DNA of 15,976 nucleotides. Origin: Klebsiella pneumoniae (GTDB lineage Bacteria; Bacteroidota; Bacteroidia; Flavobacteriales; Flavobacteriaceae). Numbering within the stretch: the first letter of the stretch is position 1; each line of letters begins with the position of its first letter. The stretch spans positions 1-15,976 of the forward strand of contig CALPPA020000008.1 in assembly GCA_943325355.2 (NCBI GenBank), read 5' to 3'. This document shows positions 10,625 to 13,904 of this stretch, in pieces. Under the pieces are notes generated by a model, which worked only from the letters and a program-made list of their open reading frames with translations, had not been told where the DNA came from and searched no databases. The translations under genes and the position numbers were made by a program.

Positions 10625-11893
10625 TTAAAGATCAAATTGTTTTATTTTTCGATAGAGCGTTCTTTCGGAAATTCCTAATTCATCAGCCGCGGCTTTTCGT
10701 TTTCCTCTGTTTTTTTCCAAAGATTTTTTTATCATTTCGATTTCTCTTTGTTCTAATTTCAGAATTTCTTCTTCTTCAACCGTTTCTTCAAATTGGTAAT
10801 TATCATCTTGTTCTTGATAATTTTTTTCATTATTTGTTGCAGTAATTAAGCCAGTTCTTGGTTCGTCTTCTGCTTCTTCTTCAAAATCTATTTCGCTGTC
10901 CTCTTCGTGAGCACCATATATTTTATTGATTAGATGCGAATTTGTTTCTTGAACTTTAGTGACGCCGTTTTGCATCAATTCCATTGTCAATTTCTTCAAA
11001 TCGTTCAAATCACTTTTCATATCAAAAAGCACTTTGTACAGAATTTCCCTTTCAGTACTAAAATCGTTTTTGCTCTTTTTGTCTTTTATTACTGAAGGTA
11101 AATTACTAGCTTCGGAGGGTAAGTAGGATTGCAAAGTCGAAGCCGTTATATCGCGATTAGTCTCTAAAACCGAGATTTGTTCAGCTACGTTCCGCAACTG
11201 TCGAATGTTTCCGCTCCATCTAAATTTTTGCAATAATTGTACGGCATAATCGTCTAATTTAATGGGAGGCATTTTGTATTTATGGGCAAAATCAGCAGCA
11301 AATTTCCTGAACAATAAATGAATGTCATCTTTTCGGTCGCGCAAAGGAGGCAAAGTTATGTCTACTGTACTCAATCGATAGTATAAATCTTCTCTGAATT
11401 TCCCTTTTTCGATGGCGTCAAACAAATTGACATTGGTAGCAGCCACAATTCTCACATCTGTTTTTTGCACTTGTGAGGAACCTACTTTTAGAAACTCCCC
11501 GTTTTCTAGAATTCGTAACAATCGAACTTGTGTTGTCAAGGGTAATTCACCCACTTCATCCAGAAATATTGTTCCGCCACTAGCTACTTCAAAATAACCT
11601 TCTCGAGTGGAAGTTGCGCCTGTAAAGGAGCCTTTTTCGTGACCAAACAACTCACTGTCTATCGTTCCTTCTGGAATTGCTCCACAGTTTACCGCAATGT
11701 ATTTGCCGTGTTTACGGTGCGAAAGTGAGTGTATAATTTTAGGAATACTTTCTTTTCCAACACCACTTTCACCCACAACTAACACTGAAATATCAGTTGG
11801 TGCTACCTGAATGGCTTTTTCTATCGCACGATTGAGTTTCGGGTCATTCCCAATAATCTCAAATCTTTGTTTTATTGATTGAACTGTTTCCAT
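10625..11893 (-). CDS. Sigma-54-dependent transcriptional activator lacking a receiver domain
   Basis: A 422-residue bacterial enhancer-binding protein. The AAA+ domain starts almost at the N-terminus: Walker A GESGVGKE (41-48), sigma-54 contact loop GSFTGA (88-93, with Ser in place of the usual Ala in GAFTGA), Walker B GGTIFLDE (106-113), and the conserved FREDLYYRL. A long, highly acidic linker (about 330-385) follows, then a Fis-type helix-turn-helix at the C-terminus (GKRKAAADELGISERTLYRKIKQFDL, about 397-422). No response-regulator, PAS or GAF sensor is present, so its activity must be set by expression level, a partner or the acidic region. It hydrolyses ATP to open sigma-54 promoters. 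Its target genes are unknown; the operon partners (lptE, secG) hint at envelope control. Confidence 0.93.
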   Translation of the reverse strand: METVQSIKQRFEIIGNDPKLNRAIEKAIQVAPTDISVLVVGESGVGKESIPKIIHSLSHRKHGKYIAVNCGAIPEGTIDSELFGHEKGSFTGATSTREGYFEVASGGTIFLDEVGELPLTTQVRLLRILENGEFLKVGSSQVQKTDVRIVAATNVNLFDAIEKGKFREDLYYRLSTVDITLPPLRDRKDDIHLLFRKFAADFAHKYKMPPIKLDDYAVQLLQKFRWSGNIRQLRNVAEQISVLETNRDITASTLQSYLPSEASNLPSVIKDKKSKNDFSTEREILYKVLFDMKSDLNDLKKLTMELMQNGVTKVQETNSHLINKIYGAHEEDSEIDFEEEAEDEPRTGLITATNNEKNYQEQDDNYQFEETVEEEEILKLEQREIEMIKKSLEKNRGKRKAAADELGISERTLYRKIKQFDL

Positions 11894-11922
11894 AGTTTTT
11901 TGTTTAACACAAATTATTTTTT

Positions 11923-12449
11923 GCCACGAATTTCACGAATTTCACGAATTTTTTTAAATGTATTTTTTTTTGAAATTTAAACAACAACTCTTTTGTGCTG
12001 AAGCGTTTTAATATTAAAATTTGCGATTATTCCAATTTGACTTTCGGCTAAAACCATATAATTCAATGTTTGAGTTAGATGTTCATTTATAATTTCTTTT
12101 AGCGCTTTTACCTCAAAAATAATTTCATCATAAACTACAAAATCTGCATAATATTTATGTGAAATGGGATGTCCTTTATAAATTATAGAAAATGGTTTTT
12201 CTCTTTCATAGGGAATATTGTTAATCTTGAATTCGATTTCCAAAGCATCTTTAATATATATAATTTCAGATAATCCGCCACCTAAAACTCTATGAACTTC
12301 CATACATAAGCCTATGATTTTGTAATACTCTTCTTTTTTATATAACTCCATATTTATTGTTTTTTGCTACTGATTTCAATATTTCAATAGTTTATAAATT
12401 TTTTTAAAATTAATAAAAGAAATTTGTGCTAATTCGTGAAATTCGTGGC
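11923..12449. repeat. Inverted-repeat-bounded cassette carrying the GxxExxY gene
   Basis: GCCACGAATTTCACGAATT at 11923-11941 is repeated perfectly in inverse orientation at 12431-12449. Each end is built of 9-bp units of CACGAATTT type: three tandem units at 11925-11951; on the right, two clear units plus a degenerate third reaching 12420. The right end stops 9 bp short of the miaB stop codon, and the left end lies 29 bp before the sigma-54 gene. The whole looks like a discrete element of about 530 bp. No transposase is present. Confidence 0.75.
11977..12351 (-). CDS. GxxExxY family protein (PD-(D/E)XK nuclease-like)
   Basis: A 124-residue protein of the GxxExxY family, named for its motif, here GLSEIIY (about 26-32, preceded by HRVLGG). 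Downstream are KYYADFVVYDEIIFEVKALKEI (about 66-87), whose D-(x)n-ExK pattern (Asp69, Glu79, Lys81) resembles a PD-(D/E)XK nuclease core, and TQTLNYM (about 92-98), typical of the family. Its biological role is not established; a DNA-acting enzyme is a reasonable but untested idea. It sits between miaB and the sigma-54 activator inside a cassette bounded by inverted CACGAATTT repeats, and gives the impression of having entered an existing operon. No clear promoter of its own was found. It appears intact. Confidence 0.88.
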   Translation of the reverse strand: MELYKKEEYYKIIGLCMEVHRVLGGGLSEIIYIKDALEIEFKINNIPYEREKPFSIIYKGHPISHKYYADFVVYDEIIFEVKALKEIINEHLTQTLNYMVLAESQIGIIANFNIKTLQHKRVVV

Positions 12450-12458
12450 GAACTTTTT

Positions 12459-13904
12459 TTAATTCATCTCACTCAAACCAAGCGCTTCACCAATCAAAGT
12501 TCCACTGGTGCAACTCGTGATTTTTACATTTACAAAATCCCCGATTTTATAATTCTCTTTTGGAAAAACCACCACAATACTTTGCGAATTTCTTCCAGAC
12601 CAATCATTTTCAGATTTTTTTGAAGTTTTTTCTACCAAAACTTCTACGGTTTGTTCCAAAAACCCCTGAGTTCTTATCGCGCTATGGCTTCTTTGTAAAT
12701 CGACAATTTCTTGTAATCTTCTCAATTTTGTGCTTTCCGGAACATCATCTTTCATTTTGCGTTCTGCCAAAGTTCCAGGGCGTTCGGAGTAAGCATACAT
12801 ATAACCAAAACTATATTTTACATATTCCATTAAACTCAAAGTGTCTTGATGATCCTGTTCGGTTTCTGTTGGAAAACCAGAAATTAAGTCTTGGGTAACG
12901 GAACAATCCGGAATTATAGCCCTGATTTTATCAATCAAATTCATATACTCTTCACGAGTGTGCAAACGGTTCATTTCCTTGAGGATTCTGTTGCTTCCCG
13001 ATTGAACCGGCAAGTGAATATGGTTGCAAATATTCGAATGTTTGGCAATCACGTGCAACACACTTTCGTGCATATCTTGCGGATTTGAAGTCGAAAATCG
13101 GATGCGCATTTTTGGGAAACCAACGGCGACCATTTTGAGCAATTGATCAAAGTCAACAGCCGTTGCTTTTTGCATTTCAGTAGCGTTGACGAAATCTTTT
13201 TTCAATCCGCCTCCATACCATAAATAACTGTCCACATTTTGTCCCAAAAGCGTAATTTCTTTAAAACCTTTGTCCCATAAATCCTGAATTTCCTTCATAA
13301 TGCTTTGTGGTTCTCTGCTTCTTTCTCGTCCGCGAGTGAAAGGAACCACACAAAATGTACACATATTATCGCAACCACGAGTAATAGAAACTAAAGCCGT
13401 GATGCCATTGCTCATTAATCGAACGGGAGAAATATCGCCGTAAGTCTCGTCTTTTGACAAAATCACGTTAATCGCATCACGACCTTCTTCGACTTCTGCC
13501 AACAAATTAGGTAAATCTTTATAAGCATCTGGACCTACTACAAGGTCTACAATTTTTTCTTGTTCAAGGAACTGACTTTTCAACCGTTCTGCCATACAGC
13601 CCAAAACCCCGACTTTCATTTTAGGATTTTTGCGTTTCACGGCATTGTATTTTTCCAAGCGTTTTCGAACAGTTTGTTCCGCTTTGTCACGAATGGAACA
13701 GGTGTTGACCAAAACTAAATCAGCTTCTTCAAGGATTTGCGTGGTGTTATATCCGTTTGACGATAAAATTGAAGCCACAATCTCACTGTCAGAAAAATTC
13801 ATCGCGCAGCCATAACTTTCTATAAAGAGTTTTTTTGTGTTCTCAGGTTTGTATTCTAGAACAAGGGTTTCTCCTTGCTTGCTTTCTTCGATAATCTTTT
13901 CCAT
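12459..13904 (-). CDS. miaB: tRNA-2-methylthio-N6-dimethylallyladenosine synthase MiaB
   Basis: A 481-residue radical-SAM methylthiotransferase that adds the 2-methylthio group to i6A37 of tRNAs reading UNN codons. The N-terminal UPF0004 domain supplies three cluster cysteines (Cys33 in YGCAMN, Cys69 in NTCSIR, Cys103 in LGCMAE). The radical-SAM triad is CxxxCxxC (Cys178, Cys182, Cys185, in RGCDNMCTFC), with PFTRGRERSRE just after. The C-terminal TRAM-like RNA-binding region (about 415-475) contains VEVLVEKTSKKS and VNVKITSCTSGTLIGE. Length is normal for Bacteroidota. It is the first gene of the operon, with its promoter 18-49 bp upstream, and is divergent from topA. Confidence 0.96.
   Translation of the reverse strand: MEKIIEESKQGETLVLEYKPENTKKLFIESYGCAMNFSDSEIVASILSSNGYNTTQILEEADLVLVNTCSIRDKAEQTVRKRLEKYNAVKRKNPKMKVGVLGCMAERLKSQFLEQEKIVDLVVGPDAYKDLPNLLAEVEEGRDAINVILSKDETYGDISPVRLMSNGITALVSITRGCDNMCTFCVVPFTRGRERSREPQSIMKEIQDLWDKGFKEITLLGQNVDSYLWYGGGLKKDFVNATEMQKATAVDFDQLLKMVAVGFPKMRIRFSTSNPQDMHESVLHVIAKHSNICNHIHLPVQSGSNRILKEMNRLHTREEYMNLIDKIRAIIPDCSVTQDLISGFPTETEQDHQDTLSLMEYVKYSFGYMYAYSERPGTLAERKMKDDVPESTKLRRLQEIVDLQRSHSAIRTQGFLEQTVEVLVEKTSKKSENDWSGRNSQSIVVVFPKENYKIGDFVNVKITSCTSGTLIGEALGLSEMN

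Follow-up and report, generated by a model that had tools for sequence, protein, structure and literature searches.

Inverted arrays of short repeats around a GxxExxY nuclease gene, and related gene-less hairpin elements

The cassette at the miaB/activator junction and its protein

The stretch of DNA analysed (the window, 15,976 nt) carries a gene for a small GxxExxY protein between two other minus-strand ORFs. The ORF at 12459-13904 we take to be miaB, as did an earlier sequence-only reading of this DNA. The ORF at 10625-11893, the sigma-54 gene of that reading, presumably encodes a sigma-54-dependent activator and not sigma-54 itself. The features are listed below.

10625..11893, minus strand: flanking sigma-54-dependent activator-like gene, its start 29 bp off the left end
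11908-11915: extra CACAAATT unit beyond the left end
11923..11950, plus strand: left end, GC followed by three 8-bp units with 1-bp spacers, CACGAATT-t-CACGAATT-t-CACGAATT
11923..11941, plus strand: left copy of the 19-bp perfect inverted repeat, GCCACGAATTTCACGAATT
11977..12351, minus strand: GxxExxY gene, 124 aa, PD-(D/E)XK-type protein (ORF and profile matches)
12421..12449, minus strand: right end, inverted, reading inward from 12449 as GC, then CACGAATT-t-CACGAATT-ag-CACAAATT
12431..12449, minus strand: right copy of the 19-bp perfect inverted repeat
12459..13904, minus strand: flanking miaB, its stop codon 9 bp off the right end

The two copies of the 19-mer (11923-11941, plus; 12431-12449, minus) enclose the GxxExxY gene in opposite orientation, as the sequence-only reading had claimed. 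That reading also described the ends as tandem 9-mers; the tandem arrays are there, but the unit is 8 bp with spacers of 1-2 bp, and the left and right ends are identical across the first 19 bp only. The 17-mer core CACGAATTTCACGAATT has three copies in the window, all at the cassette, even when three mismatches are permitted, vs a mean of 0.14 and a maximum of 1 in 200 shuffles. These shuffles, together with reversed-pattern controls, ruled out a chance origin of the repeat. In the source MAG (64% complete), the exact pattern CACGAATTNCACGAATT was found at the window site only, and its two copies with one mismatch lie on contigs of about 3 kb without a detected GxxExxY gene. Two further GxxExxY genes of this MAG have each their own, different inverted repeat: ACCGCAAATTCGCAAATT at the second gene (L002) and AACACATAGAAACATAG, with one mismatch on the opposite side, at the third (L003).

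The window protein is a member of the GxxExxY family, with 116.9 bits against TIGR04256 (cut-off 35) and 105 bits against PF13366 PDDEXK_3 (cut-off 22). Its modelled fold and the conserved residues E29, D70, E80 and K82, which supply the E, D and E-x-K of the motif, place it in the PD-(D/E)XK nuclease superfamily. PF13366 was the sole Pfam match, and this search found no HUH or Y1 transposase domain, so the protein is not a RAYT. The PDB sequence search found no relative (best E 0.23), and the PADLOC models gave weak Cas4 matches only (E 0.0019 and 0.024). The protein is modelled as a minimal PD-(D/E)XK core, similar to those of Cas4 and lambda exonuclease. The gene is under strong purifying selection, with dN/dS of 0.04-0.08 in all six chosen pairs.

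Right after the motif tyrosine, codon 33 (12253-12255) of the window gene adds one residue, giving YIKDAL vs YKDAL in the aligned relatives. Some GxxExxY copies are interrupted by stop codons (G157:C1:1646402, G042:C1:2102263, G045:C1:1552634 and G200:C27:285774), which points to turnover of the gene. A search with one relative (L106) as query at E 1e-5 gave no match among 50,697 phage records and eight among 72,556 plasmid records, and a phage- or plasmid-borne gene was dismissed on these counts.

Occurrence in the genus and in other phyla

The genus sample comprised 249 genomes (the genus was named Flavobacterium in the sequence-only reading). Their 30 best GxxExxY matches, 65-100% identical, all lie at the miaB/activator junction, and in all 30 the gene is flanked on both sides by one or more inverted CACNAATT-like units; the arrays are decayed in a few junction loci, such as L066. 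Among the 30 best activator-gene loci, the window included, GxxExxY occupies 8 junctions and 22 are empty. Empty sites in relatives, which the sequence-only reading had proposed to look for, do exist, and they speak against the gene being conserved everywhere at this site, which it had named as evidence against its own proposal. Array remnants persist at the empty junctions L085 and L101. In several junctions without GxxExxY, a small ORF (MTKKQ...FGSTFYIIRTYFPK-like) was read by eye between miaB and the activator gene (among L077, L084-L086, L090, L099, L101 and L103), and in several species an AT-rich repeat (AAGTTTAAAGTTTAAGGTTTAAAG..CTTTAAACTTTAAAC-like) lies directly before the activator gene (junctions L087, L092 and L096).

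For 54 junctions, 32 with the gene and 22 without, selected partly by having the gene, a midpoint-rooted protein tree requires about ten presence changes and has the gene on both sides of its deepest split; losses and gains of the gene at this site cannot be told apart. Gene presence clusters on the host tree, and the gene-bearing cassette is mostly a resident of the site. It also appears to have been exchanged there. GxxExxY distance follows host distance weakly (rho 0.26, n=32), and in all three host-sister pairs examined the cassette is far more divergent than its flanks, the nearest GxxExxY relatives being in other hosts. The flanks of G006/G057 are about 90% identical and the cassette 63-77%; the corresponding values are mostly 80-97% and 68-83% for G151/G157, and mostly 80-98% and 52-80% for G056/G151. 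The GxxExxY distance between G151 and G204 is 0.05, vs a host distance of 0.14. In five pairs with presumed donors, the similarity of the cassette equals that of the flanks or is somewhat higher; in G151/G204 it is 75-93% vs mostly 68-88% for the flanks, with the start of the activator gene hardly lower (83-88%). An old exchange fits better than a recent transfer of the cassette. Strict vertical inheritance of the gene with its ends was dismissed by this incongruence with the host.

At the junction, the array type tracks the GxxExxY protein (partial Mantel 0.51, 0/999); with the host there is no correlation (r 0.00). The left and right ends agree in type (rho 0.75, n=30 junction loci). Linkage alone would be enough to make the repeats go with the gene. 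At this same junction, G109 and G099 have a gene with another dialect of the repeat (CACAGATTAAAAGGATT-like, dialect C below). An untargeted scan of three blocks (1.2 Mb) for ORFs of 80 aa or more enclosed within 900 bp by an inverted repeat gave seven places, of which three hold GxxExxY by sequence. It missed the junction copy of G136 (L059), probably because the arms of that copy have diverged.

The association of the gene with inverted arrays extends to several phyla. The family was found in 101 of the 198 genomes of the phylum sample, and 21 of 30 loci taken from it scored above all 20 mispaired flanks each. Of 583 candidates in named genomes, the best 80 were kept and five of these were dropped for a flank shorter than 200 bp; 46 of the 75 testable loci beat the largest of 61 displaced controls (mean 16.5 vs 8.5). 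Mispaired flanks of different loci had a mean of 9.6, a 95th percentile of 15.0 and a largest value of 23, since units are common to different loci. The records of the loci scoring above 13 are titled Bacteroidota, Ignavibacteria, Planctomycetota, Chloroflexi groups, Acidobacteria, Verrucomicrobia, Alpha-, Beta- and Gammaproteobacteria, Mariprofundus, Nitrospinota, Sumerlaeota and Treponema, several being MAG contigs whose labels may err. Inverted arrays were found neither at the sole cyanobacterial locus (L185) nor at the sole archaeal one (L212).

The units in these other phyla are mostly CRCNNAG, e.g., ACCACAGAGACACAGAGACACAGAG. A three-unit pattern, CCRCRRAGNNCRCRRAGNNCRCRRAG, matched in 24 of 39 chosen genomes, at least five times in 13 of them and up to 116 times, with 0/39 for the reversed control. 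Several of the matches are plus/minus pairs 35-42 bp apart and some, for example in G462, run in one direction only as simple tandem repeats; in genomes with one or two matches, these may be the gene's own ends. PF13366 also matches in the control genomes Corynebacterium glutamicum, Lactococcus lactis and Sulfolobus acidocaldarius.

Repeat dialects and gene-less hairpin elements

Beyond the junction, the inverted-repeat score exceeded 13 in 34 of 39 genus loci, namely the two other genes of the source MAG and PF13366/GxxExxY loci from further genus searches, after gene fragments (L324-L327 and L354) had been dropped; the value of 13.0 is that of the largest displaced control, which came from mixed phyla and from flanks of 200 bp vs 220 bp for the genus loci. 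The arrays fall into the following dialects, with labels assigned by eye before the protein tree was seen.

Dialect A: CACGAATT with 1-2 bp spacers
Dialect B: CACGAATT without spacer, or CGCAAATT
Dialect C: CACAGATTAAAAGGATT
Dialect D: CCGCAAGG-CGCTAAGG-CGCAAAG
Dialect E: CCATTAAG-ATTAAG
Dialect F: CGCGGAT-ACGGATT
Dialect G: CGCAGATTTTGCAGAT
Dialect H: ACATAG
Dialect I: CGCAAAGACGC
Dialect J: CACAGAG
Dialect O: catch-all group

The dialect matches the protein lineage. On a tree of 43 proteins, the eleven repeat groups can be placed with 11 changes, one above the minimum of 10, vs a mean of 30.5 after shuffling (0/200). The A rows of this tree are 10 junction loci and its B row L352 scored only 11; loci with unclear arrays (L318, L337, L344 and L353) or with a dialect found once (L341 and L348) were left out. 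Related proteins share sites, and part of the dialect-protein match is plain inheritance. Of the 30 E-type gene loci examined, 26 have E arrays on both sides and all 30 have them on one side or both. Judged by about 1.2 kb on each side, these loci fall into three neighbourhoods plus one seen in a single genome. The E-type cassettes thus stand in three, perhaps four, neighbourhoods with their own arrays, which makes it probable that the cassette relocated together with its ends.

Arrays are also dispersed away from the genes. The pattern CACNAATTNCACNAATT is present in 178 of the 249 genus genomes, with up to 235 matches per genome and 0-1 for the reversed pattern. Many of the gene-less copies are palindromic (e.g., gcCACGAATTtCACGAATTggCACGAATTAATTAGTGagAATTCGTGaAATTTGTGgc at L026), and the five chosen elements all form DNA hairpins on folding (z -5.6 to -9.3). 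In behaviour they are REPIN-like, being dispersed, gene-less inverted doublets that form hairpins. A search of Rfam with the elements (16 sources) gave 0 matches at gathering score. L045 (G179) has, at about 1580-2230, some five head-to-tail copies of a hairpin unit roughly 150 bp long (CACAGATT/AATCTGTG with CACAAATT).

Paired elements measure 46-194 bp in three largely syntenic 400-kb blocks, the aligned parts of which share 84-88% identity. Between species, the element varies at all six intergenic spots that were aligned, in type at five and in length at one, and type A was found nested inside type C; no target-site duplication was seen by eye at these spots. A scan of the three blocks for clean insertions detected neither a gene-less A or E element with a clean empty site nor a target duplication. 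It returned mostly other DNA, besides one G-dialect hairpin in G088, opposite a repetitive region of G057, and an unrelated hairpin in G057 itself. This absence of clean insertions is the weakest point of the argument for mobility. The hairpin in G057 (block positions 364565-364651) is a clean 85-bp insertion vs G136 and of a different kind, TCAGGTTGAGCGAAGTCGAA...TTCGACTTCGCTCAGGATGAC; a hairpin related to it lies in G136 at the second of the aligned intergenic spots.

The abundance of the arrays is weighted by dialect. The E-type gene was found in 37 of the 249 genomes at E 1e-42 and E arrays in 100 of the 249. The median number of E arrays is 5 with the E-type gene vs 0 without, and at least five E arrays occur in 21 of 37 genomes with it vs 13 of 212 without, an excess that survives subtraction of two copies for the gene's own ends. 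A arrays have a median of 20.5 with the A-type gene vs 1 without in the same 249 genomes, where the A-type gene was assigned to 68 genomes from the best GxxExxY search rows, at least G109 and G099 of which have C ends. With genome size and the other gene type as covariates and kinship ignored, the partial correlation across the 249 genomes of A arrays is 0.37 with A-type genes (0/999) and 0.11 with E-type genes (66/999), and that of E arrays is 0.36 with E-type genes (0/999) and 0.12 with A-type genes (53/999). Some leakage is visible: with the E-type held fixed, E arrays still correlate with any GxxExxY hit (r 0.27, 0/999), and there is a weak correlation of A arrays with E-type genes when size is the sole covariate (0.14, 26/999). 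Dialect copy number thus tracks the matching paralog best, though not exclusively.

At least five A arrays occur in 113 of 205 genomes with any detected gene vs 3 of 44 without, and, within genomes of 2.0-4.4 Mb, in 58 of 143 vs 3 of 42. The sequence-only reading had held that repeats unrelated to GxxExxY genes would count against it; arrays do occur away from the genes, but in number with them. The gene-less copies also lean to the unit type of the resident gene, with a median CACGAATT share of 0.37 (14 hosts) vs 0.13 (12 hosts; p 0.001). This comparison used 25 of the 30 junction genomes (G000, G003, G163, G192 and G216 being excluded) plus G139, with author-assigned classes in which some ends are mixed. 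An exception is G006, whose gene is of the CACAAATT type and whose gene-less copies have the proportions of its sisters.

PF13366 had no match in 10 chosen array-poor genomes. It also had none in G044, G135 and G178, which have 10, 15 and 7 A arrays and one of which is rated 100% complete, and G191 has 49 A arrays and a sole PF13366 gene without inverted arrays. Strict one-to-one presence of gene and array was dismissed by these four genomes; persistence of the arrays after gene loss would explain such cases.

Proposed mechanism, alternatives and relation to known systems

We propose that the cassette belongs to a family of interspersed hairpin elements, of which it is the member that bears the gene, and that it works in a REPIN/RAYT-like manner with an unrelated nuclease that acts on its own dialect; we consider this probably correct. 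With its inverted arrays of 6-9 bp units, the element could fold back on itself, either single-stranded or as a cruciform. The GxxExxY nuclease, encoded between the two ends, would recognise the dialect of its own element and cut in or beside the folded-back array, most likely during replication. Host replication and repair would then copy the element to other sites, with the gene-less copies served in trans, and less often the whole cassette would be copied into an allelic or a new site. Binding, cutting and copying of the repeats by the protein are inferred. An alternative in the sequence-only reading, that GxxExxY would recognise the repeats as part of a system associated with them, agrees well with the data. 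Its other idea, a non-autonomous mobile element, was half right: the gene-less hairpin, with up to 235 pattern matches per genome, is the non-autonomous part, but the gene-bearing cassette (8 of 30 activator loci) is mostly resident.

The hairpins could instead be moved by another enzyme, such as an IS200/RAYT-type or other transposase, with GxxExxY as a passenger repeatedly caught between copies. Arrays without a matching gene do exist, Pfam finds the nuclease domain alone, and two gene-less copies can enclose another gene, as with one ORF in G088. Such a passenger would not be predicted inside these arrays at locus after locus in several phyla, nor would its lineage be expected to match the dialect and to best predict the gene-less copies of that dialect, and we regard this account as unlikely. 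Homing-like behaviour, in which the nuclease cuts allelic sites that are empty or of another type, repair copies the cassette and the gene-less elements are decayed leftovers, agrees with the exchange at one site, with dialect C at that site in G109 and G099, and with the remnants at the empty junctions L085 and L101. It is unlikely: in many genomes arrays outnumber genes tenfold or more, beyond what cassette decay would supply, and the arms of chosen gene-less copies are better matched than decay would leave them.

A nuclease useful to the host, possibly in defence, with its expression controlled by the terminal hairpins and dispersed copies kept as terminators or mRNA stabilisers, would account for the intergenic position of the aligned elements, the strong purifying selection on the gene and the weak PADLOC similarity to Cas4 (E 0.0019). 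However, dialect-weighted abundance, host incongruence, nesting and several neighbourhoods mark mobile DNA, and a terminator has no need of tandem 8-mers common to one nuclease lineage; we judge this reading improbable. Ordinary inherited inverted repeats, or a functionless local duplication, would be passed on where linked to the gene. This is contradicted by the multi-phylum recurrence against displaced controls, by near-zero reversed-pattern controls and by dialect-weighted abundance, and is highly improbable.

Returning to the hairpin family with its own nuclease, we lean somewhat towards a broader statement, that GxxExxY proteins, which occur across many bacterial phyla, are the dedicated enzymes of a second, independently evolved REPIN/RAYT-like world, with lineage-specific dialects, hairpins propagated in trans and a domesticated resident gene at times exchanged or relocated together with its ends. 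If true, this would assign a function to a so far uncharacterised nuclease family and would explain where the abundant short intergenic hairpin repeats of the genus and of other phyla come from. It would also mean that an arrangement of resident enzyme plus hairpins evolved more than once with unrelated nucleases, and would offer natural pairs of protein and repeat dialect for the study of DNA recognition.

Within the PMC literature (most subscription journals and bioRxiv preprints lie outside it), nothing was found on the function or repeats of GxxExxY; two of its papers mention GxxExxY, incidentally only in the extracts it yielded, one has PF13366, and the terms PDDEXK_3 and TIGR04256 were not found. 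Four of five repeat strings were absent from the same literature and one appeared in a fish eDNA paper.

Extracts of the REPIN and RAYT papers describe REPINs as inverted doublets with hairpins and report putative REPIN intermediates in population sequencing (PMC3116915), and describe RAYT genes as flanked by repeats and REPs as defined by a GTAG or CGTC tag at one end (PMC3733652), and RAYTs as vertically inherited single-copy genes, with more REPIN copies where a RAYT gene is present and no RAYT seen on plasmids (PMC8049555). As far as these extracts go, the GxxExxY gene is similar in being chromosomal, rare on plasmids and placed between inverted repeat copies, with many gene-less hairpin doublets and with arrays commoner in gene-holding genomes. 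Unlike RAYTs, which are HUH tyrosine transposases, GxxExxY is a PD-(D/E)XK protein, and, as compared with the vertical inheritance in those extracts, at one site its gene does not follow the host tree. Unlike REPINs, its ends are tandem arrays of short units, in several dialects per genome; at the window they are GCCAC arrays without a GTAG or CGTC tag and thus fall outside the REP/REPIN definition.

Similarly to MITEs, there are short gene-less elements with inverted ends and a related gene-bearing form, but no target-site duplication was seen at the six aligned spots and no transposase domain in Pfam, and the gene-bearing form encodes a nuclease core only. As with homing endonuclease genes, a nuclease gene seems to be exchanged allelically at one site; in contrast to them, the window site is intergenic, with no intron or intein seen, and gene-less copies are many and dispersed. 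The predicted fold and the E-D-ExK residues are those of Cas4, lambda exonuclease and RecB-type nucleases, but the 124 aa of GxxExxY leave no room for the iron-sulphur part of Cas4. The enzyme and the repeats of the GxxExxY-hairpin system are unrelated to those of the elements compared; its proposed way of working has a known counterpart in REPINs and RAYTs.
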